Shown: positions 2,709 through 25,475 of the stretch, in pieces
How positions within the stretch are numbered: position 1 is the stretch's first letter
How the letters are laid out: each line of letters starts with the position of its first letter
Assembly: GCA_937949535.1 (NCBI GenBank)
Contig: CALEDI010000053.1
Coordinates: 1 to 36,794, forward strand
Direction: 5' to 3'
DNA from: an uncultured Lewinella sp.
Lineage (GTDB): Bacteria; Bacteroidota; Bacteroidia; Chitinophagales; Saprospiraceae
DNA: 36,794 bases
The notes under the pieces: model-generated
What the model was told of the DNA's origin: nothing
Seen by the model: only the letters and a program-made list of their open reading frames with translations
Database searches by the model: none
Program-made: the position numbers and the translations under genes

Positions 2709-5700
2709 ATGAGAAATTTCTACACCCTGCTGTTGAGCGGGCTACTCCTATGCCTAACGGCCAGCTTAAGCGGACAAAACGTCGGCGTAGGCATCACTGA
2801 TGTTAATGGAGAAGTGAATGAAACCGTCTGCGTAGACCTCGTCGGTACCAACTTCGTTGGCATATCTGGTATGCAGTTTAGTATCACTTTTGATACTCAA
2901 GTGCTTGAGTTTGTTTCCGCTACCGGAAGCATCAATGGCAACAACGTCACGATGATCAACCTTGCCAGCTCGCCCAACGCTGTTCGGGTGGTTTACGCGC
3001 CTTTTAGCTCTACGGGATACACCGACCCGGGGCCTTTCGTGATTGGCCAAATCTGTTTCCGAATCCTGCAAAAGGTAGAAACGGAAATCGAAATAGGCGG
3101 CAGCCCAACACCGCTAGAGTTTACCGATGACATGGGCAACATCACCGAAGACATAAACGATGTAGACATCAATACCGGAACGATTAACGCTGGTGTTGTC
3201 GGGGCATCAAGCTGTACGGATGGCATCCAGAACGGCAACGAAACGGGCGTTGATTGTGGTGGCCCAGATTGCTCGCCATGTATGCCGACCTCAAACATGC
3301 TCGGCGTTGGGCTCACCGACGTTGAAGGAGCAGTGGGGGAAACCGTATGCGTTGACCTCGTCGGGACCAACTTCGTTGGCATTTCTGGCATGCAGTTCAG
3401 CATCACTTTTGATAGCCAAGTACTGGAGTTCGTTTCCGCTATGGGCAGCATTAACGGCAACAACGTTTCGATGATCAACCTTTCCAACTCGCCCAATGCG
3501 GTGCGGGTGGTTTACGCTCCTTTCAGCTCTACGGGATATACTGATCCGGGGCCTTTTGTTATTGGGCAGGTTTGCTTCCGAGTACTTCAAGAGGTAGAAA
3601 CGGATGTAGTGATTGGCGGTAGCCCAACACCATTGGAGTTTACCGATGATATGGGAAACATCACGGAAGATATAAACGATATAGACATCAACAACGGAAC
3701 CGTTAACTCGGGCAGCGGAAGTACGGCAACCTGTACCGACGGCATCCAGAACGGCAGCGAAACCGGTATTGATTGCGGTGGCCCAGATTGTGTGGCCTGC
3801 CCAACGAACACCTGTACGGATGGCATCCAGAACGGTAACGAAACAGGCGTTGACTGCGGCGGCCCAGATTGTGCGGCTTGCCCAACTTCTGCAGTATGTG
3901 GGGAGGGGTCCAGCTTTTTCAACCTCTGCGTTGAAGATATTTGTGATATACCCGCCAACGGCAACTTCTGTATGGACCTTACGGTGGGCAACTTCACCAA
4001 CATCACCGGCGTCCAGTTTGTGCTTACTTACCCGGCAGCTAACCTCGAATTTGTAAGTTTTAGCTCTCCGGCATTGGGCGCACCGTTTCAACTCAACGAG
4101 TTTGCGGACGGAAACCTGCGCGCCATTTACATCGACGGAGACCAGAGCGGAGAGTCGCTTGACGATGGAACCGTACTGACAACAATTTGCTTCACCAACG
4201 AAACGGCGGGATCTACCGTAGTTGAGGTGGCCTCCCTCCAGGTGGGCAATACCAGCGGTATGGTAGCTGGGGCGGTTGGCAACGACGGCTCCGTAAACGC
4301 TGCAAGCTGTGGTGGAAACACCGCTACTTGTACAGACGGTATCCAGAACGGCAACGAAACAGGCGTTGACTGCGGCGGCCCAGATTGTGCGGCTTGCCCA
4401 ACCTCCGCAGTGTGTGGGGAGGGGTCTAGCTTCTTCAACCTTTGTGTTGAAAACGTCTGCGATGTACCAGCCAACGGCAACGTCTGTGTAGACCTTACGG
4501 TGGGCAACTTTACCAATGTTACCGGTGTCCAGTTCACGCTTACTTACCCAGCGGCGAATCTGGACTTTGTCAGTTTTAGTTCTCCGGCACTAGGTGCACC
4601 ATTCCAACTCAACGAGTTTGCGGACGGGAACCTGCGGGCTATTTATATAGACGGAGACCAGAGCGGAGAGTCGCTTACTAATGGTACCGTATTGACAACG
4701 ATTTGTTTCACGAACGAAACAGCGGGGCCTACAGTGATCGAGGTCGCCTCTTTGCAGGTGGGCAACACCAGTGGTGTAGTAGCTGGGCCGGTTGGCAACA
4801 ACGGTTCGGTAAACGCGGCAGGATGTGGTGGAAACACGGCCACCTGTAACGACGGCATCCAGAACGGTAGCGAAACCGGTGTCGATTGTGGTGGCCCAGA
4901 TTGTGGGGCCTGCCCATCAATGGAATGTGGAACGAACGCAACTGATGTAGAAATATGTATAGGAAGCGTTTGCGCGGACGCAGGTGCAGAGGTTTGTGTA
5001 CCAGTAATGGTTAACAACTTCGACGACCTTGGTGGCCTACAGTTCTCCCTTAATTTTACTGCCGCAAACTTGGATTATGCCCGCTTTAACACGCACCCGA
5101 GCCTCCAGAACGGAACAACCGTTGCTAGCTCCTCCGATGGGGTCGTTAGCTTGGTATGGAACGACCCTAATTTGGTAGGCATCAGTATAGACCCCACCGA
5201 GGTCGCCTTCGAGATTTGTTTCGATGTAGAAAACGCGGCCGCTACGCCGCTTACCTTCCGAGACCCAACCAATACCCTCCGGGCGTTCAACGACCAAGGT
5301 GGCCAGCTGCCGGTAAGCGGAAGCCCCGGTGCTGTAAACCAAAATTGTAGCACCACGGCAACCTGCTCCGACGGCATCCAGAACGGCAACGAAACCGGCG
5401 TCGATTGTGGCGGCCCAGACTGTGGGCCCTGCGGCGGCATGAACGGTAGCGAATGCGGAATGGGTACCGATGCCTTCTCTATTTGTATCGGTGATGTGTG
5501 TGATGTACCGGCCAACGGACAAGCCTGTGTAGACCTTTTTGTAGGCAACTTCACGAGCATTATTGGCTTCCAAATGGACATACTCTACCCAGGGGCTAAC
5601 CTCGAATTTCAGAGCTTCACTTCGTCAGCATTGGGAGGCGAACTTCAGGGTAACGCCCTCTCAGACGGAGACGTTCGGCTGGTGTTCTTCAACTCCCCAC

Positions 5701-8700
5701 TTGCCGGAGTAACACTGGATGATGGAACCTCTATCGGTACCATCTGTTTCACGAACCAAGTGGCTGGCACAACGACCCTAACGGGAGACAACCTCCGTGG
5801 TAGCAATACCAGCGGCATGCTTTCAGCCCCACCCCCTGTTTCCAATGATGGAGCAGTGAACGGGAGCAGTTGTAACGCTGGGGCTGGCTGTACTAATGGC
5901 ATCATGGACGGCGATGAAACGGGCGTTGATTGCGGAGGTAGTTGCCCTACTACCTGCCCATCCGGAACAACCCCATCTTTCGATGTTAGCAGTGGTACCG
6001 CAGCAGTTGGCGAAGAGGTTTGTATTACAGTGAACGTTGATGACTTCACGAACCTGACCAACGTAGCAATGACGTTGAACTACGACCCTACTGATCTAGC
6101 ACTGGTCTCCGTCACCGGAAACCCAATGTTGGCTTCCTTCGGGGCTTCCAGCGTTAACACCACTACGGCTGGCCAAATAGTTATAAACTACAACCCGCCT
6201 TCTCCGCAAACCTTGGCCGATGGCCAAGCCTTTGTAACGGTCTGTTTTACTTTACTAAACAACGGGCCAACCAACATCGACCTAACGGGCGTTACCGCTA
6301 CAGACAACAACGGCAACACCCTAACAACAACAACCAACGGCGGTACAATCATGGCTTCGGGAACGTTTACCAACCTGACGCTAATGGGCGGAACGGCTTC
6401 AGGCCTCCAAGGCACTGAGGTTTGCGTAGACATTAACGTGTTTAACTTAGAAGACCTCGCAAGCTTGCAGTTCGCGATCAGTTATGATCCTGAAAAACTG
6501 TCTTTCACTACAGGGATGGGGACCGGCCAGTTGCCCGGCCTTCAGATCGCGAACCCGACCCCAGGTATACTGCGCGCAGTATGGTTTGACCCTAGTGTGG
6601 GCTCCAACTCAGTAGCCGATGGGAACAGCATTGCGAATGTCTGCTTCACGGTCCTTCAGCGATGTGACGCAGAAATAGGAATAACCGAAGACTTGCCTTC
6701 TTTCCGCATTAGGGCCGCAAACCCAAACAACGAGGCCGTACTACCTATTGATCGGGTATCGGGCAGGGTCAATGCGGGTGAAACAAGCTGTGGAAACATA
6801 GGCCCCGCTCCCAACCTTATCCTTGAGATGAATTCCATTGCTGGTCAGGTTGGTACAGAGGCCTGTCTGGACCTCAGTGCAACGAACTTCATCAACATGA
6901 CGGATTTTAGTTTCTCTCTAGACTACGACGCAACCAACGTAACCTTTGCACGGGCAATAAACTTCGGCTTGGGAAGCATTAGCGCCGCTAACGTTACGAA
7001 CCCAAGCGCAGGGGTTATTGTGTTCGACTGGAGTTCGCCTACCAGCGCAGGGCAAAGCATCCCGGATGGAAACACTATAGTCTCCTTCTGTTTCACGATA
7101 GACGAAGTTGATATTACTCCGATCAATTTCAGCAACAGCCCTACCCCCATTGTTGCAAGGAACAGCAACAACCAAGCGGTAGGCTTAGTCCCGATGGGCG
7201 GCGTAATCAACCCCGATGGGCAGGTCGTGATTTCGGGAGCTGCCTTGAACGACCCCGCGTGTGCGGGTGGTGCTGATGGTTCAATTACGCTTACGGTTAA
7301 CGGAAGCAGTAACCTGACTTACCAGTGGTCTCCCAATGTGTCGAGCTCCGCAAACGCGACGGGCCTTTCCGCAGGAACCTACAATGTTACAGTCACCAAC
7401 GGCGGAGCATCTACCCAAGGGTCTTATACCCTTCTTAACCCCGGGCCATTTGCCATTGAAGTAGCCAGCGTAAACGATGTAAGTTGCTCGGATGGGCAAA
7501 ACGGTCAAATTCGTATTACTACTGTTGGCAACAACGGCCCGTTCAATTTTGACTGGAGCGGCAACCTACAAGATGGCCAAGGCGTAAACCAGCAGACGAG
7601 CCTCGGTGCGGGAACCTACGCTGTAACGGTCACTGACCGCAACGGCTGTGCCCGAATTTTGAACAACATTACGGTCGGAGCACCAACATCCCTGAACATT
7701 ACAGGTACTCCCTTCAAGATTACGAACAATACCCCAGGCGGAGTTGACGCTGGAGTAACTGGTGGAAACGCACCTTTCTCCTACGCTTGGACGGGCCCCA
7801 ACAACTATACCGCTAGTACGCAAGACATCAATAACGCTACAGAGCCGGGTACTTACTGCCTCACCGTTACGGACAACAACAGCTGTACGGATACACGATG
7901 CTTTGAGGTCTTCCGCGATGTAGAGATCACCTCTACCATCATCAGCCAAGGCTGTGCTGGGGAAAATAGCGGAGCTATTGATATTAGCGTAACGGGTGGT
8001 GATGGAACTTACACTTACCTCTGGACCTCAGGAGGAAGTTCTATTGCTAGCAGCCAAGATGTTAGTGGCCTCGCTCCCGGAGATTACCAAGTGATGATCA
8101 CTAGTGGCGTATGTGAAATCACGCAAACCATCACCGTTGAAACGCCAGACCCCATTCTGTTGCCTGGCGCAACGAGTGGTGCGACTACCGGAAACAACGG
8201 TACAATTACCTTAACCCCATCAGGAGGAAACGCGCCCTATAGCTTCGTTTGGGATGACGGCCCCACCACCCAAAACCGTACGGGCCTAACCGCAGGCCAA
8301 TACTGCGTTACGGCCACAGACGATGATGGGTGTTCGGCTTCAATGTGTTACAATGTTGCAGGTGCTGATGCTAGCATCGTAAGTGTAACCACCACCCCAG
8401 CTTTCTGCAACGGTTCAGATAATGGAAGCGTAACGATAATCCTCAGTGGTGGTACGGCACCTTTCCGGGTACGGATTGAACCAATAGGGCGGACGGCAAC
8501 GTCTACCGACAGAGACATTGGCCTGAACCTAGCAAGCGGTACATACACCATATTCATCACGGATGATCAAGGTTTTGTGCTGGATACAACGGTAACGATT
8601 GATGCCTCAGATGCCATTACGGCAACCGCAACGACAACCTCTGATACCGAAGCCATTGGTTGTTCGGGGATGGTCAATCTCGACATTGCTGGCGGAACTG

Positions 8701-10118
8701 GGCCTTATACTGTTACTTGGAACGACGGCATGACTGGGGCTACCCGAAGCCTACTTTGCGCAGGGAACTACACCCCAACCATTACAGACGCCAACGGCTG
8801 TACCTTTGAACCCGGCACAACAACCGTTGGCCGGATTGACGAAGCACTGGTTGCTACTACAGACGTAGCTTGTGCGGACGGTACCGAAGGCGGTATCGAT
8901 GTGAACATTACGGGAGGAGCGACGCCCTATACCTTTGCCTGGACCCGCGTTGGCGCCTCCGATATCTTATCCACCAACGAAGACCTCCGCGCTGCAGATG
9001 TAACCGGCGGCGTAACCGCAGGAGATTACACCCTTACGGCTACAGACGCCACCGGAGCAACACTGATGGTAAACTACACCGTCGGTATTTCGGCTGGCTT
9101 TAGCGTCACCAGCGCAGTTACTTCCAACTACAATGGCTTTGGCGTAAGCTGTGCTGACGCCAACGACGGGCGCATCGAAATCGCCATCAGTGGGCAAGGA
9201 GATTTCATGTACGAGTACCTACTCGATGGTGTTATGGTTGGTATGGACAGTGTACTTTCTGGCGCGGCCGCAGGTGCTTACACCGTTAACGTCATTGATG
9301 CAGGCGGCTGTGAAATCAGTAATACCCTTGAAGTAACGGCCCCTCCGGCCCTAGTATTGAGCGAGAGCATCACCCGCATTAGCTGTGGCAACTCCGGAGA
9401 TGGCAGCATCTCCGTAGCCGTAACCGGTGGGATAATGCCTTACGCCTACCTATGGTCTACCGGAGAAACGACGTCCCGTATCTCAAGCCTCGAAATGGGC
9501 ACCTACAACGTAACCGTGACCGACGGCAACAACTGTACAAGTATGGCATCTTATGCTGTAAACGGACCCGAAGACCTCGCAATAACCTTCGAAGCTATTG
9601 ATGCTACTGAAGGTTGCAACGGCAGCATCCGCGTCATCCCGCTGGGTGGTAGCGGAAACTACCGCTACACCTTCCCGCAGTTGCCGACCCAAGGCAACGA
9701 CCCGTTTGCCGAAGGCCTCTGCCCTGGTGTTTACGAAATCCAGATAACCGACGACAACGGCTGCCAGACGGTAACAATGACCGCCGAAGTACTGGACCGC
9801 CGTTTCCCTTGCTTAAGTACACGCGAGGTAATCACCCCCAACGGTGATGGCCTCAACGAAGCTTTCGTAATCACTTGCTCCGACGGCGACGATGCTATCG
9901 ACAACAACCTCCAGATATTCAACCGCTGGGGGCAGCTCGTATACCGCGCAGCAGATTATGATTGTAGTGACGAAGACCGGGGCATAAATTGCTTCGAAGG
10001 AAGAACCAACGACGGTGAAATCCTACCCGAAGGGCCTTACTACTACGTTTTCGAGTTCCGAAATATGCTCGGTGAAGAGATGCAGCAACGCGGTTCTCTT
10101 ACTATCCTACGCGATTAA
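2709..10118 (+). CDS. Giant T9SS surface protein: nine cohesin-like modules, SprB-like repeats, type B tail
   Basis: The protein has 2469 residues. The signal peptide is residues 1-23, ending L-S-G-Q. About 24-1500 contain nine cohesin-like modules, recognisable by a VCVDL-type strand, a G-QF-L-Y-strand with a following Leu-x-Phe, and a late I-CF strand. The first six are separated by a Cys-rich linker whose core is CTDGIQNG-ETGVDCGGPDC (seven copies, two in tandem after module 2). About 1503-2365 hold roughly eleven SprB-like repeats of the form SC...G-I---V-GG--PY-Y-W...G-Y-VTVTD-NGC. About 2372-2469 are the T9SS type B (gliding-associated CHU_C) domain: EVITPNGDGLNEAF, QIFNRWGQLVY and LPEGPYYYVF. 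It should be exported by the T9SS and displayed as a very long filament or adhesin. The PorP/SprF gene just downstream fits the known pairing of SprB-type cargo with SprF. The substrate or partner is unknown. Confidence 0.88.
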   Translation: MRNFYTLLLSGLLLCLTASLSGQNVGVGITDVNGEVNETVCVDLVGTNFVGISGMQFSITFDTQVLEFVSATGSINGNNVTMINLASSPNAVRVVYAPFSSTGYTDPGPFVIGQICFRILQKVETEIEIGGSPTPLEFTDDMGNITEDINDVDINTGTINAGVVGASSCTDGIQNGNETGVDCGGPDCSPCMPTSNMLGVGLTDVEGAVGETVCVDLVGTNFVGISGMQFSITFDSQVLEFVSAMGSINGNNVSMINLSNSPNAVRVVYAPFSSTGYTDPGPFVIGQVCFRVLQEVETDVVIGGSPTPLEFTDDMGNITEDINDIDINNGTVNSGSGSTATCTDGIQNGSETGIDCGGPDCVACPTNTCTDGIQNGNETGVDCGGPDCAACPTSAVCGEGSSFFNLCVEDICDIPANGNFCMDLTVGNFTNITGVQFVLTYPAANLEFVSFSSPALGAPFQLNEFADGNLRAIYIDGDQSGESLDDGTVLTTICFTNETAGSTVVEVASLQVGNTSGMVAGAVGNDGSVNAASCGGNTATCTDGIQNGNETGVDCGGPDCAACPTSAVCGEGSSFFNLCVENVCDVPANGNVCVDLTVGNFTNVTGVQFTLTYPAANLDFVSFSSPALGAPFQLNEFADGNLRAIYIDGDQSGESLTNGTVLTTICFTNETAGPTVIEVASLQVGNTSGVVAGPVGNNGSVNAAGCGGNTATCNDGIQNGSETGVDCGGPDCGACPSMECGTNATDVEICIGSVCADAGAEVCVPVMVNNFDDLGGLQFSLNFTAANLDYARFNTHPSLQNGTTVASSSDGVVSLVWNDPNLVGISIDPTEVAFEICFDVENAAATPLTFRDPTNTLRAFNDQGGQLPVSGSPGAVNQNCSTTATCSDGIQNGNETGVDCGGPDCGPCGGMNGSECGMGTDAFSICIGDVCDVPANGQACVDLFVGNFTSIIGFQMDILYPGANLEFQSFTSSALGGELQGNALSDGDVRLVFFNSPLAGVTLDDGTSIGTICFTNQVAGTTTLTGDNLRGSNTSGMLSAPPPVSNDGAVNGSSCNAGAGCTNGIMDGDETGVDCGGSCPTTCPSGTTPSFDVSSGTAAVGEEVCITVNVDDFTNLTNVAMTLNYDPTDLALVSVTGNPMLASFGASSVNTTTAGQIVINYNPPSPQTLADGQAFVTVCFTLLNNGPTNIDLTGVTATDNNGNTLTTTTNGGTIMASGTFTNLTLMGGTASGLQGTEVCVDINVFNLEDLASLQFAISYDPEKLSFTTGMGTGQLPGLQIANPTPGILRAVWFDPSVGSNSVADGNSIANVCFTVLQRCDAEIGITEDLPSFRIRAANPNNEAVLPIDRVSGRVNAGETSCGNIGPAPNLILEMNSIAGQVGTEACLDLSATNFINMTDFSFSLDYDATNVTFARAINFGLGSISAANVTNPSAGVIVFDWSSPTSAGQSIPDGNTIVSFCFTIDEVDITPINFSNSPTPIVARNSNNQAVGLVPMGGVINPDGQVVISGAALNDPACAGGADGSITLTVNGSSNLTYQWSPNVSSSANATGLSAGTYNVTVTNGGASTQGSYTLLNPGPFAIEVASVNDVSCSDGQNGQIRITTVGNNGPFNFDWSGNLQDGQGVNQQTSLGAGTYAVTVTDRNGCARILNNITVGAPTSLNITGTPFKITNNTPGGVDAGVTGGNAPFSYAWTGPNNYTASTQDINNATEPGTYCLTVTDNNSCTDTRCFEVFRDVEITSTIISQGCAGENSGAIDISVTGGDGTYTYLWTSGGSSIASSQDVSGLAPGDYQVMITSGVCEITQTITVETPDPILLPGATSGATTGNNGTITLTPSGGNAPYSFVWDDGPTTQNRTGLTAGQYCVTATDDDGCSASMCYNVAGADASIVSVTTTPAFCNGSDNGSVTIILSGGTAPFRVRIEPIGRTATSTDRDIGLNLASGTYTIFITDDQGFVLDTTVTIDASDAITATATTTSDTEAIGCSGMVNLDIAGGTGPYTVTWNDGMTGATRSLLCAGNYTPTITDANGCTFEPGTTTVGRIDEALVATTDVACADGTEGGIDVNITGGATPYTFAWTRVGASDILSTNEDLRAADVTGGVTAGDYTLTATDATGATLMVNYTVGISAGFSVTSAVTSNYNGFGVSCADANDGRIEIAISGQGDFMYEYLLDGVMVGMDSVLSGAAAGAYTVNVIDAGGCEISNTLEVTAPPALVLSESITRISCGNSGDGSISVAVTGGIMPYAYLWSTGETTSRISSLEMGTYNVTVTDGNNCTSMASYAVNGPEDLAITFEAIDATEGCNGSIRVIPLGGSGNYRYTFPQLPTQGNDPFAEGLCPGVYEIQITDDNGCQTVTMTAEVLDRRFPCLSTREVITPNGDGLNEAFVITCSDGDDAIDNNLQIFNRWGQLVYRAADYDCSDEDRGINCFEGRTNDGEILPEGPYYYVFEFRNMLGEEMQQRGSLTILRD
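2778..3815 (+). repeat. Recent tandem duplication of cohesin units 1 and 2
   Basis: Unit 1 (2778-3296) and unit 2 (3297-3815) are offset by 519 bp, exactly 173 codons. Their protein sequences are nearly identical through the whole cohesin module and the Cys-rich linker, and the DNA is also highly similar, which indicates recent duplication or gene conversion. Confidence 0.8.
3891..4922 (+). repeat. Recent tandem duplication of cohesin units 3 and 4
   Basis: Unit 3 (3891-4406) and unit 4 (4407-4922) are offset by 516 bp (172 codons). Both begin AVCGEGSSFFNLCVE and share long identical stretches, for example ALGAPFQLNEFADGNLRA. This pair differs clearly from units 1 and 2, so at least two separate duplication events are seen. 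Confidence 0.8.
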
Positions 10119-10213: not shown

Positions 10214-11173
10214 ATGAAAAAAATGCTACCCACCCTAGTTTTAATACTGGTAGCCCTTGGTGCGCTCCGCGCCCAAGACGAAGCCGTCTTTAACCACTAC
10301 GTCCAGAACCCAATCATCCTTAACCCCGCAGCCGCAGGCTTTCTGGATGAGTACACCGTTCAGGTCAATGCACGGGCCGCTTGGTCTGGCTTTATCAATT
10401 CTCCCAAAACGGTGGCCGCTAGGCTCAACGGGCCGGTAGGTGATAACTTCGGAATAGGGGTTGGCATATTCTCAGAGAAAGCCGCCGGTATCCAACGGAT
10501 GAAAGGGCAAATCGATGTTGCCTTCCGCTTCGGCCTCGGGAAAGAAGTGAAGGGCGTATCGCCTTTTCAGGCTGCTTTCGGGTTCTTGACGGAGTTTCAG
10601 CGCATTACGCTAGACGCCAACATCGTAAACAACTCCCGCTACGAACCGGGAGACCAAACGATCATGGAGTACCTTGAAGGCAAGAATGTTTTTGATGCTG
10701 GCCTCGGCATCTATGGCAGCTACCTCGAAAATACCTTCGGCGGCCTAACGATCAATAATTTGGTGGCTAACCGACTGAACGACATCTCTGGGTCTACTAC
10801 TGATGAAGGCTTCAACTTCACCCTTTTGCTAGGGCACCGCTTTCGTATTGAAGACCTGAACGTTAACCTTACCCCAAGCGTGATGCTGCGCGATGTACAG
10901 AACGCGCCCTTCATGATGGATTTTAATATCCAAGCGGGCTTCCTCGATGACCAATTCATCGCAGGGCTCTCTTACCGCAACTTGGGCGGGCTCGGAATGC
11001 TGTTGGGTACCGAAATTAATGGCTTGCAGCTTTACTACTCCTATGACTTGGGCTTCAGTGAATTCCAGAGTTACAACAACGGTAGCCACGAATTTACGGT
11101 AGGCTATTCCATCGACCGAAAATCGATTCAGGAGAACCGTAAAAAGAACGCAATACAAGACAACCGGCGGTAA
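10214..11173 (+). CDS. PorP/SprF-family T9SS outer-membrane protein
   Basis: The protein has 319 residues, normal for the family. A signal peptide (about 1-20, ending R-A-Q) is followed by the family start motif: FNHYVQNPIILNPAAAGF at about 26-43, with the conserved N-P-A-A-G. Later are alternating beta-strand segments typical of a 14-strand outer-membrane barrel (for example FGIGVGIFSEKAAG, GLGIYGSYLEN, FIAGLSYRNLGGLG). PorP/SprF proteins are outer-membrane partners of the T9SS; SprF is needed for export of the SprB adhesin in Flavobacterium. Its place right after a type B cargo gene suggests it serves that cargo. The C-terminus is charged (NRKKNAIQDNRR) and probably periplasmic. Confidence 0.9.
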   Translation: MKKMLPTLVLILVALGALRAQDEAVFNHYVQNPIILNPAAAGFLDEYTVQVNARAAWSGFINSPKTVAARLNGPVGDNFGIGVGIFSEKAAGIQRMKGQIDVAFRFGLGKEVKGVSPFQAAFGFLTEFQRITLDANIVNNSRYEPGDQTIMEYLEGKNVFDAGLGIYGSYLENTFGGLTINNLVANRLNDISGSTTDEGFNFTLLLGHRFRIEDLNVNLTPSVMLRDVQNAPFMMDFNIQAGFLDDQFIAGLSYRNLGGLGMLLGTEINGLQLYYSYDLGFSEFQSYNNGSHEFTVGYSIDRKSIQENRKKNAIQDNRR

Positions 11174-11174
11174 A

Positions 11175-11205
11175 TTGCTTGTTTGTTGTGAAGTACTTAC
11201 CTTTG
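11175..11205 (+). promoter_or_regulatory. Consensus Bacteroidota promoter for a non-coding transcript
   Basis: TTG (11175-11177), a 20-nt spacer, then TACCTTTG (11198-11205), a perfect match to TAnnTTTG. It begins 2 nt after the SprF stop codon. The predicted start near 11212 is about 240 nt upstream of the next ORF, so it makes a long non-coding transcript or leader. Confidence 0.65.
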
Positions 11206-11211
11206 GCTCGC

Positions 11212-11425
11212 GCTCATGCCCTTTCGGTGTGCGCGCGAGTTGAGTTTTGAGCTATCCCGTGTTGCCGCTCTATGGCAACACATTGCTATCTACCTATAAG
11301 TGAATACTGATGCCTCTGCTTTTCCGAGCAGCAGACATCTCTGTTAGCGCAGTTGCCTGACGGATAAGAGCTTAAATCGGTTTTTGGGATAGCCTCTCTT
11401 CCGCGATTCGGGAGAGGGGTTTTTT
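11212..11425 (+). ncRNA. Candidate structured RNA: attenuator leader or stand-alone sRNA
   Basis: This segment of about 214 nt has no plausible ORF but shows nested pairing. A perfect 8-bp closing stem GCTATCCC (11251-11258) with GGGATAGC (11386-11393) encloses 127 nt. Inside are a perfect 8-bp hairpin GTGTTGCC/GGCAACAC around 11259-11281 and an 11-bp irregular hairpin near 11309-11339, with one bulge, one mismatch and a 6-nt loop. A 5' hairpin (CTCGCGC with GCGCGAG, about 11207-11239) overlaps the predicted start. It ends in an intrinsic terminator. The layout could be a riboswitch-like attenuator for the DJ-1 gene 25 nt beyond the terminator, or a 6S-like sRNA. I could not match it to any known riboswitch consensus. 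Confidence 0.5.
11393..11425 (+). terminator. Intrinsic terminator directly before the DJ-1 gene
   Basis: CCTCTC (11393-11398) pairs with GAGAGG (11412-11417), extended by G-T pairs, followed by GG and six T (11420-11425). It abuts the closing stem of the upstream RNA. Only 24 nt separate the T-tract from the ATG at 11450, too few for an independent -33/-7 promoter. Confidence 0.75.
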
Positions 11426-11449
11426 CTTGAACGCAAACCTTGGTATACC

Positions 11450-12007
11450 ATGAAAGCAGCCTTCGTCCTTTTCAACGGCATTACGCTCCTCGACTTCATC
11501 GGCGTTTATGACCCGCTCAGTCGTTTGCAGTCTCAGGGGCACTTACCCGACTTTAGTTGGGATACTTGCGCCTTCACCCCCACAATTACAGATTCGTTCG
11601 GGCTTCGTGTAGAAGTAGATAAGGTAACGCCAGACCTTAGCGGATATGACCTTTTGATCGTGCCCGGAGGTTTTGGTACACGTACGTTGCAAGACGATCT
11701 TGCTTTTATGAGTTGGTTGCAAACCGCTGCGGATGTACCCCTCAAGACTTCGGTTTGTACGGGCGCTTTGCTGCTCGGTGAGGCAGGCTTCTTGAAAGGA
11801 CACCGGGCCACCACGCATTTCAACGAATACGATGCGTTAGAGGGCTATTGTAAAGAAGTAGTACGAGAAGAGTTGGTAGACGACGGAGCCGTGGTTACTG
11901 CCGGGGCCGTTGCGTCTTCCCTAACGTTGGGGCTTTACCTCTGCGAGAAGTTTGTAGGGAAAGAAAAGACGGAAACGATACGCAAGAGCATGGCTTATCT
12001 TCATTAA
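11450..12007 (+). CDS. DJ-1/PfpI family protein, isonitrile hydratase-like
   Basis: The protein has 185 residues, a single flavodoxin-like DJ-1/PfpI domain. The strand DLLIVPGGFGTR (about 65-76) and the nucleophile-elbow segment TSVCTGALLLGEAG are typical of the family; Cys103 is the likely nucleophile, followed by Thr104. Asp15 in ITLLDFIGVYDP matches the acidic residue seen with Cys-Thr in isocyanide (isonitrile) hydratases, and the downstream G--ATTHF is also like those enzymes. It probably acts in the cytosol; isonitrile hydration is a family-based guess and a glyoxalase or chaperone-like role is possible. Its transcript probably passes through the upstream structured leader and terminator, so expression may be controlled by attenuation. 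Confidence 0.85.
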   Translation: MKAAFVLFNGITLLDFIGVYDPLSRLQSQGHLPDFSWDTCAFTPTITDSFGLRVEVDKVTPDLSGYDLLIVPGGFGTRTLQDDLAFMSWLQTAADVPLKTSVCTGALLLGEAGFLKGHRATTHFNEYDALEGYCKEVVREELVDDGAVVTAGAVASSLTLGLYLCEKFVGKEKTETIRKSMAYLH

Positions 12008-12072: not shown

Positions 12073-15000
12073 TTAACGCAGCACCATTATGTCTCCTGAA
12101 AAGGTACGGCTCTCGGTTTCCTGATCGTCTCGGTAAGTGACTTCAATAGAATAGACGTAGACCCCAATACCGAGGGGGTTACCGTTCTTGGTTCCGTCCC
12201 AACGATCATTGACGCTTTCGGAGCGGAAGACGGGGGCTCCCCAGCGGTCAAAGATCTCCATGGTGTACTCCAAAATTTCGATGCTGTTGTTGTACATGAG
12301 GCCGAACCTGTCGTTGATGCCGTCGTAATTGGGGGAAAAGGCGTTAGGGAGGTAAGCTTCAAACTTGATGCAGGGCTCAAGGGTAACTACGACGTTATCT
12401 GTAACCTGGCAAAAATCATCTTGCAACAAGGCTTGGATGGTTCTGGAAGAAGGTACGAGATAGCTCCGCCCGTTGGAGCCGTCGGGCCAAGTAAGGGTCC
12501 CCTCACCAACATCGTTGGGCCTGAGGATAAAGGGTACATCGTCACAAACCGTCGTGTCTGGCCCAAGGTCAAGTACAGGCGGAGCGTTGAAGGTAAGTGC
12601 TACAGAGTCTCTGGTAATACAGCCATCAGCATCCTCTACGTCAACGAAGCGGAGGCCGGAAGTAGTGAAGGTTCGGTTTGCATCTACCTCCCCGTCGTCC
12701 CAGGTAATAAAGCCTGCGTTGCTAGGGGATACGGAGACGGACAATACTTCTCCTTCGCAGGTTTCTTGATCTTCGCCTAGGGAGAACTCTGGGGCGGGTA
12801 AGAAGCGCACGTTTACGCTGTCTGCTGCGCTGCAAATGCCATCAGTAACGACTACTTTGAACTCTCCATCGGTTAAGGTGCTGAAGGTAGGAGCGAAAGA
12901 TCCGTCTTGCCATACTCCGTTCATTCCTGCGTCAAGAACGACAGGTATGCCCTCGCACTCTGCTACATCTGGCCCCAGGTCAATAGCGGGTGGAGGGAGG
13001 AGGTCTAGCGCAAAATCCTTGGACAACACGCAAGAGCCGAAGTCAAACTCGACCATGAATGCTCCGCCGGTGAGTGTGTTGAAGTCTGGTCCGGTTTGCC
13101 CGTTGCTCCAGCTTATAGCATCTGCGGTTACTTGGGTAGAAAGGCGGAAGGTTTCACCTTCGCATATCTCATATCCGTCTACTATATCAAGGTCATCAAG
13201 GCTTAGAAAGGTCAGCTCAATGGTGTCGGTAGCGGTACAGCCCGCACTGTCTACGATTACGGAGTACTGGCCCGTACTATTGGTGGTAAAGGTTTGGTTG
13301 CTGCTGCCGTCTTGCCATAAATAGCCGTGGTTTGGGTTGCCAGCATTGAGTACAAAATTCTGCGCTTCGCAGAAGATTGAGTCATTGCCTAAGTTGACGA
13401 TGTTGGGCGTTACGTAAACAACCTCTACACTGTCTTGGACAGGGCAGCGTCCGTTATTGGCTTCTACTACGTAGATGCCCGGTTGGTTTCCGGTAAAGGT
13501 GGAGTCGGTACTCCCGTCTTGCCACATAAAGCCGTCTGCAACAACGTTTGCTGTGAGGGTAAAATCTTCGCCTGCGCAGGCTACAACGCGGTCATCACCG
13601 ATGTCTACAACAGGAGATGGGATGACGGTGACCATGATACTGTCTGATTTGAGGCAGCCGCCGAGGTCTACGGTAACGCTGTACTGGCCAGCAGTTGTAG
13701 CACTGAAGGTAGGGCGGGGGCTGCCGTCTTGCCAGAGGTAGTCTGGGAAGTTTAGGCCCGTATCTGCAACCAGTACTAAGGTGTCCCCTTGGCAAATGGT
13801 GGAGTCTTCGGGAAGGCTTACCTCTAGGGTTGGGGCATCAAAGATTACAATCGTATCTCGGGTGGAACAGTTGTCTTCAAAGGTTACTTCAACGTAGTAA
13901 GTACCTGCTTGGTTGGTGGTAAATACTGTATCCGTGGAGCCATCCTGCCATAAGTATGTCTCGTTGGGGCTGAAGTTGAAAGCGTTGAGGGTAACGGTTT
14001 CATCTTCACAAATTGCTCGGTCCAAGCTTAGGAAGCCAACGGTTTGGAACCGAGGCGCAGTCTCAAAGCGCCAATTCACATTAGAGCTGTCAATATTTGT
14101 ACTTCGCGTCCCGGCGAAGAAGTCTGCCCCGCCGACACCGGTGATGTTGCGCATTTGTACGAAGTCGGCGACGATTTTACCTCCCTCTGGCACCTGCGCC
14201 CGCGCCTGCACACCATTGATGCTAGACTGCAAAGCGATAGGGGTACAGTTGCTCCCGATTGTTTTCCAGTACTCATTGATCGTCTGGTCCGCATCGGCCC
14301 TGAAGATGTAAGACTTTCCTGGGGCAAAAAGCAAAGTGTCGGTAGTCAATTCTAGGTCAATACGGCCATTGCCATTAAAATCGACGGTGCTGGCGAAGAC
14401 GTCAACAATAGCTGATTGTTCCTGAAGAATACGGCCATTGCCCGCCGCGTCACTGAACAAGATCTTGTTGAAGTTGACGCCATAATCCGCCCTGATGGCG
14501 CCGGAAGAACTGGTAAGTTCAACCAACGAGTTTCCTGGGTCAATGGTGACATTGGCCGCACCATAAGCAGAAAAGGCCCCCGTCAAACCATCATAGTCGA
14601 AACCAAGCCGAAGGTGTGCATCCCCAAGGTTCATGAACTTAGGGTTGCGCCCCTGGAGGATGGTCATGCGCTGTAAGTCTCCGGTTTGGTCCGTAAAGTT
14701 CAGCGTACCCCGCTGATGAACGATGTTGTATCCGGTAAAGTCATCAATGAAAGTATACGTGCCGGATTGCTCAAAAACGAAGTCAAGAAAACTAGCTCCA
14801 CCCATCGTGATGGTGTGGTCGCCTGCCCCGATAAAATAGGCCGGAGACGCGCCAAAGCTAAGATTTCCCGCATTGGTGAGGCTGCCCGCAATCCGTATCC
14901 GACCAACATTGAAAGAGTTGGCGTTCGTCAGGTCCGCCATCCAATTTATGTTGAAGCAATTAGCGAAACGGTCTCCGTTGTTGGCGATGGTGAAGTCTAC

Positions 15001-17448
15001 GGCCAGGCTTGAGTTGCCGTCAATGACAACATTGTCGACTAAGGTAGGAATACATTCACCGCCTACACCACCGGATGTGAGCGACCAGTGGTTGATGTCT
15101 TGCCAATCTCCTTCGCCACCAACCCAGAAGAGGGTGCGGCTGGCTTGTGCGTTGATTTGCCAGCCCGTATTGCCTCCTCCATCTAAAGATGTATTTGCTG
15201 TGGCTGGGGCACCGCCAATGACTTCTATATCGCGCAAGTAAAGGCGTTCAAACGTTTGCCCTGCGGGCAATGAAAGCTGGGCAATTTCGTCTGGGGAAGA
15301 AGACCCGATACTGGTTGGGCCAGCCTCACAGCTTCCGTTCGCAACGAGTTCATTTACGCGCTGTATTTGGTCTGCTCGTAGCTCATAGTCTCGGCCCGGC
15401 GCGAGGTATAAGTAATTGAATTCGTTGTAGCCAGCGATGATGCCAGAATTGAAAAACGAGAGGGAGTCTACCCGTACCGTAGGTGTGAGCGCAGGGTTGA
15501 AAACACTTTGGAAAAAGCCACCGAACGGGATCAAATAATTAACGACATTGAGGGTTATGGTGTCTTGGCCATTGATGTTCACGTTGCCGCTTTGGCCAGC
15601 CTCAAGGCTGATGATGGAGTTGCCCGCCTCAAAGCGCAAGCTGTCTGACTGGAGGGTCATCTCGGAATAGAAGAAGCTATCTTGGCGGGATTCGAGGGTG
15701 ACCAGAGAGTTGCTCAGGTAGATTTCCCTTGCCCCGCTGCCGAGGGAGTAGAAGAAATTGACGTTTACTGCCTGGTCATTGGTTCTGAAAACACCCGACA
15801 GGATGTTGAGCTCGTAGTAGACCCGCAGCGCGTCTTGCAGAATCCATTCGCCACCGCCTTCAAAATAGGCGTTGCTGTTGAGTTGCTGACCAGCCGAGGT
15901 GATGGTGTTGCCTGTTTGGCTGGAGGAGAAAAAGTAGTTCCCCTCGAAGGTGTGGTCCATGGCGGGGATGAAGGCCAAGCTTCCCCCAATTTGCATTCGG
16001 TTATCGTTTGGCCCAGCAAAGGCGGGGTTGAAGCTGGCTCCGACCCAACTCATATTGCGGCAGGCGGCGCTTTCTATGTCGATACTGACGGTCTGCCCCG
16101 GCCCGGTGAAGGAGTTACCGTCGAAGAAAACATCATCAGCCAACGAAGGCACACAGCCGTTGGCGGGGCCTCCGCTGGAGAACGACCAGTTGTTGCCGTC
16201 GCTCCAGTCTCCGGTTCCCCCGATCCAAAAAAAACGTTCATTGGGGCGGGAGTTAAAGGCCCAGCCGCTGTTTCCGCCTAGGTCTATTGCGTCGTTGACG
16301 GTAAAGGCCCCGCCGCCGCTGGCGGAGATGGCGCGTAGGGCTGCAAAATTGGCCGTGATGGGGACCGTTGCCGAGAAGACCGCCGGATTGGTAAATGCGG
16401 TACCAACGATGTCTATGGTTGCTTGGCAACTACCGTTGGCGATCAAGTTGCCGAGGGTGAAGGTTTTGCCGCTCTGGAAGTTGTACTCTTGGCCACCGTG
16501 TAGCTCCAACTCCCCGATGATGAAGTCGTCGCCCAGAAGGGTTCGGTGAAGAAGGTTCAGGCGAGCGAAACCCACGGAGGGTTCTGAGCCTGGGCCGTTT
16601 TGGTCTGTCCAATGACGAATGGTGGAGCTGCCGGAGGCTGAGCTCAATACAACTTCGTTGAAGTTTAGCGTGCCAGGGCCTTCAAAATAAAGTTCTACTT
16701 CACTTCCGGAGAGGTTAATTGTGGATGACCCCGCGTTTAATAGCAGGTTGCGTGCGTCAAGCCAGAGCGGTTGGGAGTTTAGGGTAGTGTAAGCACCAAC
16801 GTAAGGGCGCCAAGTACTGGCGGTGATGTTGATGGTGCTCGCGCCTAGTTCTAGGCTGCGGATCGCATCGCCATCAGACCTGAAGTATTGAGTGGTGACG
16901 GCGCGGCCGCTGGTGCGAAGTGTGCCTTCGTTAAAGAGCAAGATGGAGTCAACAACTACGTCTCCCGTCAGCCGCCACGCTCCGGTGCCTGCAAACTCAA
17001 GGATGTAGCCTGCGGTGTTGCCACGAAAATCAACGTCATTATTGTCTGGCCCAGTGAAGGTAACCTTCCCTTCAAAGCTGTAGTCCATCGCATTGATTAG
17101 CTCAAGAGAACCGAAAACATTGAGGGTGACTTCCCGGGAACCCAAGAAAACAGGGTTGCCCGTAGCCCCAGCCCAATTCATATTGCGGCAAAAGTTTATA
17201 GTGTTGTTGACCCGAACAATGTCCATCGTGCCGGTAAAAGAATTCCCATCGAAGAAAACATCATCGTTAGAAGTTGGCGCTTGCGCGTGGGTCACATTTC
17301 CGCCAGAGGTCGTTGCCCAGTGGCTTATGTCCGACCAATCACCTGAACCACCGACCCAGAAGTAGTCGGCAGCAGCAGTAGGGGTGAACGTGTGAAAAAT
17401 GCATACAAGCACCACAGCCACACGGGAAATGAAAGTTGGTTTAAACAT
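12073..17448 (-). CDS. Giant modular secreted protein with T9SS type B sorting domain
   Basis: The protein has 1791 residues. A signal peptide covers about 1-27. Three long modules of about 365-380 residues begin near 28, 405 and 770 with the signature FWVGG-GDWSD--HW---SGG followed by DDVFFDGNSFTG; these look like beta-helix/beta-sandwich carbohydrate-binding or stalk modules common in Bacteroidota surface proteins. About 1137-1690 hold eight Ig/PKD-like repeats of the form LG-D---C-G----L--------W-DGS-------GGY-V-V---C---DSV. About 1695-1791 form the type B (CHU_C) tail: LPNAFSPNYDGINDRF, EIFDRWGAPVF, GIGVYVYSIEVTY. It should be displayed on the cell surface through the T9SS. Binding target unknown. 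It is transcribed divergently from der. Confidence 0.87.
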   Translation of the reverse strand: MFKPTFISRVAVVLVCIFHTFTPTAAADYFWVGGSGDWSDISHWATTSGGNVTHAQAPTSNDDVFFDGNSFTGTMDIVRVNNTINFCRNMNWAGATGNPVFLGSREVTLNVFGSLELINAMDYSFEGKVTFTGPDNNDVDFRGNTAGYILEFAGTGAWRLTGDVVVDSILLFNEGTLRTSGRAVTTQYFRSDGDAIRSLELGASTINITASTWRPYVGAYTTLNSQPLWLDARNLLLNAGSSTINLSGSEVELYFEGPGTLNFNEVVLSSASGSSTIRHWTDQNGPGSEPSVGFARLNLLHRTLLGDDFIIGELELHGGQEYNFQSGKTFTLGNLIANGSCQATIDIVGTAFTNPAVFSATVPITANFAALRAISASGGGAFTVNDAIDLGGNSGWAFNSRPNERFFWIGGTGDWSDGNNWSFSSGGPANGCVPSLADDVFFDGNSFTGPGQTVSIDIESAACRNMSWVGASFNPAFAGPNDNRMQIGGSLAFIPAMDHTFEGNYFFSSSQTGNTITSAGQQLNSNAYFEGGGEWILQDALRVYYELNILSGVFRTNDQAVNVNFFYSLGSGAREIYLSNSLVTLESRQDSFFYSEMTLQSDSLRFEAGNSIISLEAGQSGNVNINGQDTITLNVVNYLIPFGGFFQSVFNPALTPTVRVDSLSFFNSGIIAGYNEFNYLYLAPGRDYELRADQIQRVNELVANGSCEAGPTSIGSSSPDEIAQLSLPAGQTFERLYLRDIEVIGGAPATANTSLDGGGNTGWQINAQASRTLFWVGGEGDWQDINHWSLTSGGVGGECIPTLVDNVVIDGNSSLAVDFTIANNGDRFANCFNINWMADLTNANSFNVGRIRIAGSLTNAGNLSFGASPAYFIGAGDHTITMGGASFLDFVFEQSGTYTFIDDFTGYNIVHQRGTLNFTDQTGDLQRMTILQGRNPKFMNLGDAHLRLGFDYDGLTGAFSAYGAANVTIDPGNSLVELTSSSGAIRADYGVNFNKILFSDAAGNGRILQEQSAIVDVFASTVDFNGNGRIDLELTTDTLLFAPGKSYIFRADADQTINEYWKTIGSNCTPIALQSSINGVQARAQVPEGGKIVADFVQMRNITGVGGADFFAGTRSTNIDSSNVNWRFETAPRFQTVGFLSLDRAICEDETVTLNAFNFSPNETYLWQDGSTDTVFTTNQAGTYYVEVTFEDNCSTRDTIVIFDAPTLEVSLPEDSTICQGDTLVLVADTGLNFPDYLWQDGSPRPTFSATTAGQYSVTVDLGGCLKSDSIMVTVIPSPVVDIGDDRVVACAGEDFTLTANVVADGFMWQDGSTDSTFTGNQPGIYVVEANNGRCPVQDSVEVVYVTPNIVNLGNDSIFCEAQNFVLNAGNPNHGYLWQDGSSNQTFTTNSTGQYSVIVDSAGCTATDTIELTFLSLDDLDIVDGYEICEGETFRLSTQVTADAISWSNGQTGPDFNTLTGGAFMVEFDFGSCVLSKDFALDLLPPPAIDLGPDVAECEGIPVVLDAGMNGVWQDGSFAPTFSTLTDGEFKVVVTDGICSAADSVNVRFLPAPEFSLGEDQETCEGEVLSVSVSPSNAGFITWDDGEVDANRTFTTSGLRFVDVEDADGCITRDSVALTFNAPPVLDLGPDTTVCDDVPFILRPNDVGEGTLTWPDGSNGRSYLVPSSRTIQALLQDDFCQVTDNVVVTLEPCIKFEAYLPNAFSPNYDGINDRFGLMYNNSIEILEYTMEIFDRWGAPVFRSESVNDRWDGTKNGNPLGIGVYVYSIEVTYRDDQETESRTFSGDIMVLR

Positions 17449-25070: not shown

Positions 25071-25079
25071 CTACTTCAG

Positions 25080-25152
25080 AGCCGTCCATCGGACTCGAAC
25101 CGACGACCTATTCATTACGAATGAATTGCTCTACCAACTGAGCTAGGACGGC
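25080..25152 (-). tRNA. tRNA-Thr (anticodon CGT)
   Basis: Read on the minus strand, a 7-bp acceptor stem GCCGTCC/GGACGGC, a D-arm GCTC-AGTTGGTA-GAGC, an anticodon stem ATTCA/TGAAT with loop TTCGTAA, and a T-arm loop TTCGAGT give a full cloverleaf. The anticodon is CGT, reading the Thr codon ACG. The discriminator base is U and CCA is not encoded, so it must be added after transcription. It has a consensus promoter upstream and a terminator downstream. Confidence 0.97.
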
Positions 25153-25167
25153 TTGCTTACGGTGGGG

Positions 25168-25197
25168 CAAAGATAAGTTGCGGCGTTAAATCGGCAA
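25168..25197 (-). promoter_or_regulatory. Consensus promoter of tRNA-Thr
   Basis: On the minus strand TTG (25195-25197), exactly 19 nt, then TATCTTTG (25168-25175): a perfect TTG-N19-TAnnTTTG promoter about 16 nt upstream of the mature tRNA 5' end. It is the best reference for the promoter grammar of this window. Confidence 0.75.
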
Positions 25198-25475
25198 AGA
25201 GGAATTTTGGGCTGGGTTGAGGGCCTCCGGCCCGAACGCTCCCGAGCGGCAGCGAGGAGTAATGAGATGAACACCAACGGACCGGTTAAGATGCCTGAGT
25301 TGCTTACGTTCAACACAAAGGGGTTCTCTCCAAACTCGCCAGGCGAACTTTTTTGTTGTAGAATTAGCGTCGATCTTATCAAGAGACAAACTCTGATCCT
25401 AATAACCAAATCATTCCTTTAAAGCAGTGACAAAAAAGAATGTGCTTCGCAGTACTTCGTGCTCGACTGGCGAGT
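25198..25475. other. Intergenic gap without a recognised gene
   Basis: The gap between the tRNA promoter and purD holds GC-rich self-complementary blocks (GGGCCTCCGGCCC near 25222, GCTCCCGAGC near 25238) and short frames on both strands that lack family character. On the minus strand, downstream of purD, there is a run of six T near 25430 without a clear stem. I see no gene here. Confidence 0.5.

Follow-up and report, generated by a model that had tools for sequence, protein, structure and literature searches.

A predicted structured small RNA behind a type-B adhesin-PorP/SprF gene pair of an uncultured Lewinella ends in a 3' element that recurs at T9SS genes of the Saprospiraceae

The stretch between the PorP/SprF-family gene and the DJ-1/PfpI-like gene of this uncultured Lewinella sp. 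is, by comparative evidence, a real structured RNA. The window, that is, the whole stretch of DNA analysed here, comprises 36,794 nucleotides, and the features around the RNA are listed in Table 1. From its sequence and that of its relatives, the reading that we favour is an independent structured small-RNA gene and not a controller of the gene in front of it. We give about even credence to the fuller reading that it is an independent small-RNA gene, linked to the type IX secretion system (T9SS) and ending in a family-wide 3' regulatory module that would be recognised in trans.

A sequence-only reading had described this stretch as a structured RNA with its own promoter and terminator, and all the sequence features that it named were found where it had placed them. 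TTG (11175-11177) is followed after 20 nt by TACCTTTG (11198-11205). Between 11174 and 11449, the plus strand is free of ORFs of ≥40 aa, and two mechanical minus-strand ORFs (51 and 56 aa) cross part of this region. GCTATCCC (11251-11258) and GGGATAGC (11386-11393) form a perfect long-range stem of 8 bp enclosing exactly 127 nt. The terminator adjoins this closing stem, its six T occupy 11420-11425, and 24 nt follow before the ATG at 11450. With a -7 box covering -12 to -5, as in the passages available from the work on Flavobacterium psychrophilum (PMC9723704), the RNA would start at approximately 11210. The minimum free energy of the window RNA was -96.3 kcal/mol, compared with -68.5 ± 4.7 kcal/mol for 200 dinucleotide shuffles, none of which folded as well.

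The motif TTG-N19-21-TAnnTTTG occurs twice in the window, against a mean of 1.02 in 100 dinucleotide shuffles, and 28 of the 100 shuffles had two or more. The count does not differ significantly from the shuffles, and the promoter motif taken alone is weak evidence; it gains weight because the relatives keep it at a fixed place. The window contains one other full match, which begins at minus-strand position 25197, directly before a tRNA-Thr gene (region 25079-25210). That tRNA was the only match of the window to Rfam 15 at the gathering threshold, and neither the RNA nor the 3' element described below had one. At E up to 10, the best match of the RNA stayed below its gathering score (anti-hemB, 15.1 bits against 49.5) and is not credible. 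A 6S-like RNA, which had been named as the main alternative, found no match in Rfam 15 at the gathering threshold or at E up to 10. Six loci were also searched at E up to 0.1; the matches were confined to miRNA models and RefA1, scored below gathering, and lay away from the element.

Table 1. Features in and around the predicted small RNA, in window coordinates.
Feature	Position	Strand	Evidence
Giant adhesin-like gene, T9SS type B sorting domain at the C-terminus	2709..10118	+	TIGR04131 E 3.3e-6, 27.2 bits, below curated cut-off 35
PorP/SprF-family T9SS shuttle gene	10214..11173	+	TIGR03519 E 1.1e-49, 169.5 bits vs cut-off 90.55
Bacteroidota-type promoter TTG-N20-TACCTTTG	11175..11205	+	begins one base past PorP stop codon
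Structured small RNA (predicted)	11206..11425	+	fold z -5.94; 10 homologues of 201-230 nt; sequence-level prediction
5' hairpin P1	11206..11240	+	beats shuffles in homologues
GCTATCCC, first possible GGGATAGC partner	11251..11258	+	8/8 pairs in 6/10 homologues
Hairpin P2	11259..11281	+	beats shuffles in 6/10 homologues
GCTATCT, second possible GGGATAGC partner	11285..11291	+	7/7 pairs in 9/10 homologues
Hairpins P3 and P4	11309..11364	+	beat shuffles in 7/10 homologues
Family-wide 3' element (model R1)	11363..11425	+	own genome: 64 bits, E 2.9e-15
Conserved core AATCGGTTTTTGGGATAGCC	11375..11394	+	sequence comparison
Intrinsic terminator hairpin and T6 tract	11391..11425	+	stem covariation
DJ-1/PfpI-like gene	11450..12007	+	best TIGR01383 43.3 bits, below curated cut-off

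Of 60 genomes searched, G014 and G007 had the whole stretch, at 75% and 69% identity, respectively. Six more genomes of the genus had the last 60-70 nt of the RNA at 94-98% identity, and G010 had them at 81%. RNAs of 201-230 nt, running from a TAnnTTTG-like box to the terminator, are present at ten loci of the genus (L001, which is the window, L002-L009, and L011); eight of these ten were first found through their 3'-end match, so that an intact core is partly selected. The full promoter consensus is kept in seven homologues, L008 has the -7 box only, and the promoter is degenerate in L009 and L011. The P1, P2, and P3-P4 regions share a mean pairwise identity of 0.52-0.57 among the homologues. 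P1 gave a mean z of -4.8 over nine homologues and beat shuffles (p ≤ 0.05) in eight of the nine, the aligned part of L011 being too short for the test. Over all ten, P2 gave a mean z of -2.6 (p ≤ 0.05 in six; no P2 signal in L009) and P3-P4 a mean z of -2.7 (p ≤ 0.05 in seven). The signal of all three regions is absent in L008. Apart from this exception, the fold is kept in relatives too. In the full-length MAFFT alignment (A3), the columns outside the core are weak, and we claim no covariation score for the whole RNA. At the sequence level, the stretch has the properties expected of an independent trans-encoded sRNA, namely its own promoter and terminator and conservation apart from ORFs.

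Within the homologues, CTTAAATC is kept in ten of ten and the full core in nine. In L009, the body of the RNA is kept and the core has decayed, with GAGACC replacing GGGATAGC. When G.U pairs were allowed, GGGATAGC could form all seven pairs with GCTATCT in nine of the ten homologues, compared with all eight pairs with GCTATCCC in six. In L009, the tenth homologue, GGTCTTA and TGAGACC could pair in a shifted register (a single case, judged by eye). With two copies on either side of P2 that would compete for one partner, the sequences suggest an RNA that may act as a conformational switch. A palindromic CTGCGGCCGCG recurs near the RNA terminator in L002, L003, L005, and L009, and also at positions 9263 and 20821 of the window.

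The 3' end of the RNA belongs to a much wider set of sequences. In public prokaryote genomes, an exact 24-base pattern from the element was found in at least 118 stretches. By record title, among the 80 matches listed, 79 were from Bacteroidota or a group within it, mostly Saprospiraceae or kin, with one of the 79 titled Cyclobacteriaceae, and the remaining match was from Thermoanaerobaculia. Sixty non-redundant copies align as AATCGGTTTTTGGGATRGCC, a hairpin, and a T-tract (alignment A1, from which ten sites lacking the expected G4-T4 pattern were excluded, along with near duplicates with a ratio >0.92). The early set of sites was picked by the pattern GGTTTTTGGGATRGCC (with one G optional in the neighbour survey) and loci L024-L141 by AATCGGTTTTTGGGATRGCCTCTC; the invariance of the pattern columns in A1 is therefore partly by construction. 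This selection does not touch the neighbouring genes, the distal pairs of the stem, or its 3' arm. In the terminator stem, 99.5% of the cells pair, and the covariation score of 0.243 exceeded all 500 shuffles (0.128). The lower stem keeps two U.G pairs, in 59 and 51 of the 60 rows, respectively.

The core itself has a mean predicted unpaired probability of 0.30-0.37 by class and is not clearly single-stranded. Its pairing with the upstream 50 nt beat shuffles (p ≤ 0.05) in 34 of 101 sites (cargo 18/44, PorP 3/18, sites without an ORF 11/30, other 2/9). In 94 comparisons with DNA lying 100 nt further upstream, this pairing was the stronger one in 61 and the weaker one in 32. We considered whether the core forms the 3' arm of a second hairpin at every site and set this aside as not universal, the 34 sites giving it partial support. 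Among the matches listed in our literature searches, which left subscription journals and bioRxiv largely outside, no paper was found that describes the element in its title or the start of its abstract. The element family is apparently undescribed, both in Rfam 15 and in the literature searched.

As a 3'UTR element does, the element immediately follows coding genes on their own strand, and these genes are mainly those of the T9SS. Among 85 same-strand upstream proteins ending within 400 nt, which were the ones profiled out of 98, the NCBIfam models at E ≤ 1e-3, a threshold looser than the curated cut-offs, assigned 64 to type-A sorting and 15 to PorP/SprF; Pfam gave 62 and 15. With local profiles, none of the 85 fell in both groups and five fell in neither. 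At loci L024-L141, T9SS genes made up 60 of 63 adjacent upstream ORFs, compared with 16 of 89 ORFs otherwise adjacent and 13 of 297 distant ones. The local HMMs were built from the same upstream proteins, and the NCBIfam and Pfam tests use curated models. The 150 unique sites were classed as 63 cargo (by pattern), 23 PorP, and 12 other (by eye, four of these, L054, L066, L078, and L092, look like cargo); the remaining 52 lacked a usable ORF upstream, and 34 of these have little contig before them. At the 63 cargo sites, the GG of the core lay a median of 56 nt past the stop codon. Few T9SS cargo genes bear the element: G070 had 80 sorting-domain matches against two elements and G000 had 92 against one, and the other six genomes had ≥150 sorting-domain matches in five cases and, in G105, 146 of 150 scored. 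A diversity-generating retroelement was considered and discarded, since the coding 3' ends next to the element encode sorting domains.

The element also ends other RNAs. A second RNA type contains GGATTGTATGT. At 14 of its 18 sites, a PorP-like ORF (recognised by pattern) precedes it at a distance of 349-1171 nt; of the other four, two follow a cargo gene, one has no such gene by pattern (L078, cargo by eye), and one has no contig room. The same type stands behind PorP in the single-contig genome G104. A third type was recognised by eye at L027, L031, L033, L074, L102, and L137 from a frame resembling GATGAGAAGCC...GGCTTCTCATC. Within 1300 nt upstream of it, a cargo gene was found in L031 and L137 (617-889 nt) and none in L027, L033, and L074; L102 has no room. 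This third RNA is structured-looking, without a credible Rfam match, and in L033, L074, L102, L137, and L027 it holds AACCGATT, which by eye is complementary to AATCGGTT of the element that follows.

R1 matched 103 of 120 Saprospiraceae genomes at E ≤ 1e-3, of which 90 matched at E ≤ 1e-8 and 13 only weakly; 17 had no match. In an order sample of 248 genomes (E ≤ 1e-5), R1 was found in 53 of 62 genomes of the family and weakly (≤34.5 bits) in four of 186 from other families. In a phylum sample of 395 genomes (E ≤ 1e-3), it was found in 35, of which 30 were outside the family at ≤32.8 bits. The family, order, and phylum searches used stricter filters, which lose weak matches. These data indicate that, as far as sampled, the 3' module is specific to Saprospiraceae. 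Within the genus, 11 of 21 genomes matched at E ≤ 1e-3, nine with one strong copy each and two weakly, and 10 had no match. The own genome (88% complete) has the element in a single copy. Eight closely searched genomes, picked partly for high copy number, had 1-15 matches each, including weak ones down to about 25 bits. Behind single genes, the terminator element also occurs in tandem, with two to four copies, some of them weak, in a few hundred bases (L031 7318-7550; L239 9556-9721; L240 18852-19400; L247 5449-5860). Contig C23 of G091, which holds L239 and L240, carries a cluster of giant T9SS cargo genes with gaps of about 0.7-1.4 kb without ORFs ≥120 aa.

The alternative that survives best, which we nevertheless regard as rather doubtful, is that the element is a strong lineage-specific intrinsic terminator of long T9SS operons that was spread by duplication, regulates nothing, and is unrelated to the window RNA. 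A plain terminator needs neither a fixed sequence before the hairpin nor the fixed U.G pairs seen in 59 and 51 of the 60 rows of A1, and the low copy number per genome and the strong restriction to T9SS genes also speak against it. On its side are the hairpin and T-tract that end all 60 aligned copies (the ten pattern-lacking sites being left out), the tandem copies behind one gene (L031, G091, G105, and G120), and the position of 33 of the 63 cargo sites only 15-57 nt past the stop codon.

It is unlikely, in our view, that the copies are paralogous small RNAs, some of them 3' UTR-derived, that base-pair through the core as a seed in the manner of FopS in Bacteroides. According to the passages available from PMC11697453, FopS is a 14-member sRNA family of Bacteroides thetaiotaomicron with RNAs of approximately 65 and 70 nt and the seed at the 5' end. 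Our element resembles FopS and GibS as described there: multicopy Bacteroidota RNAs with a conserved stretch adjacent to a Rho-independent terminator, intergenic and 3'UTR members, and a link to outer-membrane systems. The genomes searched here likewise encode an RRM protein. The element differs from FopS as described there in standing at T9SS genes instead of PULs and in being able to end an RNA of 215 nt. The same passages state that FopS was deposited in Rfam; our element has no match in Rfam 15, although release 15 may lack FopS. Complements of the 13-base core (≤1 mismatch) numbered 139 in nine genomes, nine self matches included, compared with 94 for the reversed pattern, which favours the seed reading; in G010 the order was reversed (13 complements against 18). 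Seven further exact complements in the nine genomes lay, by eye, in or beside dissimilar ORFs with no shared target, and predicted folds often have the core in a paired state. An Hfq-dependent sRNA was rejected: Hfq (PF17209) was absent in all 40 genomes searched, the own genome included, and was detected in five of 14 control genomes. Rfp18, an sRNA of Flavobacterium psychrophilum, is described as widely conserved in its genus, unlike our RNA, and the passages available on it (PMC9723704) describe no shared multicopy 3' element such as the one found here.

A DNA-level site, serving recombination of tandem surface-protein genes or a DNA-binding factor, is very improbable: the long exact sequence conservation and the giant cargo gene cluster of G091, several of whose genes have copies behind them, would fit such a site, but the orientation of the element is coupled to the upstream gene, a T-tract follows it, and the compensatory changes of the stem together with the G.U pairs argue for RNA rather than for a DNA-level site. 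Least probable of all is a ligand-controlled attenuator (riboswitch) of the DJ-1/PfpI gene, which has the window geometry on its side (a structured leader, a terminator, and an ATG 24 nt on) and is largely refuted by gene order, by an antiterminator pairing that is not conserved, and by the location of the terminator element mostly at gene 3' ends.

The gene order is as follows. A DJ-1/PfpI-like gene is next after the RNA in three of the ten homologues (the window, L002, and L009) and not in the other seven; a convergent 229-aa gene is next in six (L003-L007 and L011; the L003 copy matches SDR oxidoreductases), and another ORF is next in L008. No downstream gene is constant, and the riboswitch was rejected on this ground. 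The proposed antiterminator between AAGAG and CTCTT likewise failed, as AAGAG occurs only in the window and L002 among the ten homologues (AAGAT in six, AAGAA in one, AAGCA in one). Of the sequence-only reading, the structured RNA or sRNA with its own promoter and terminator has thus held up, its architecture being shared by ten homologues, and the DJ-1 riboswitch has not. Further on, the minus strand (12073-17448) encodes a 1791-aa protein whose T9SS type-B sorting domain scores 45.9 bits with TIGR04131 (cut-off 35); its gene runs towards the DJ-1 gene.

A PorP/SprF gene lies upstream of the RNA in nine of the ten homologues (profile-confirmed for the window and L009), the exception being L008. 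By this comparison, the gene linked to the RNA is the upstream PorP/SprF gene. The giant adhesin-like protein encoded before it in the window has 2469 aa. G120 has the same order of giant type-B protein, PorP/SprF, and element (TIGR04131, 35.2 bits vs cut-off 35); in G091 and G104, PorP/SprF was identified by profile and the giant protein was judged from its C-terminal residues only. The passages available from PMC12618676 report that porP/sprF is commonly located directly 3' of type-B cargo genes and that PorP/SprF shuttles go with cognate type-B cargo, in the same gene order as here; an RNA behind the cargo-shuttle pair, present here, goes unmentioned in those passages.

Our preferred reading is that of a T9SS-linked small RNA with a shared 3' module. 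A structured RNA of approximately 215 nt would be encoded directly behind the type-B adhesin-PorP/SprF pair and transcribed from a sigma-A type promoter of its own, with an intrinsic terminator at its 3' end. Its last 62 nt appear to be a copy of a 3'-end module that also closes type-A cargo genes, PorP/SprF genes, and further small RNAs. The strict core, the T9SS linkage, and the presence both behind mRNAs and in free RNAs point to a common trans-acting reader. The module, consisting of the core and the G.U-rich terminator hairpin, would be bound by this factor, which may set the stability or translation of the T9SS cargo and shuttle transcripts. The free-standing RNA could expose or hide the module, as GGGAURGC can pair with either of two GCUAUC copies, and might thereby act as a regulator or a decoy. 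Judged from sequence comparison, the module is most likely a post-transcriptional 3'-end regulator common to T9SS mRNAs and small RNAs, with a presumed partner in trans.

RRM protein genes were found in eight of eight genomes, with one copy in seven and two in one, and an RRM protein is only a candidate for the trans-acting factor. RbpB binds FopS RNAs in Bacteroides, according to the passages available from PMC11697453. RbpB is taken here to be of the same class as the RRM proteins of these genomes, which share the RRM domain with it. Several findings weigh against the preferred reading: 10 of 21 genus members and 17 of 120 family members have no match to the element, few T9SS cargo genes bear it, the core is not clearly single-stranded and has decayed in L009, and L008 lacks both the P1, P2, and P3-P4 signal and the PorP/SprF neighbour. 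Since the own genome holds one element, a multi-cargo mRNA regulon is not seen there. As a tentative possibility, one RNA-binding factor might read the common 3' module on giant surface-protein and PorP/SprF mRNAs and on sRNAs, and the RNA behind the adhesin-shuttle pair might be a decoy that switches through its two GCUAUC copies, thereby tying cargo production to shuttle supply.

To our knowledge, how Bacteroidota co-ordinate the synthesis of very large surface proteins with their secretion machinery is little understood. If real, a sequence-conserved 3' module common to T9SS cargo, shuttles, and small RNAs across a widespread bacterial family would offer a direct way into that regulation, and would make an Rfam-grade family with a named gene set for testing.
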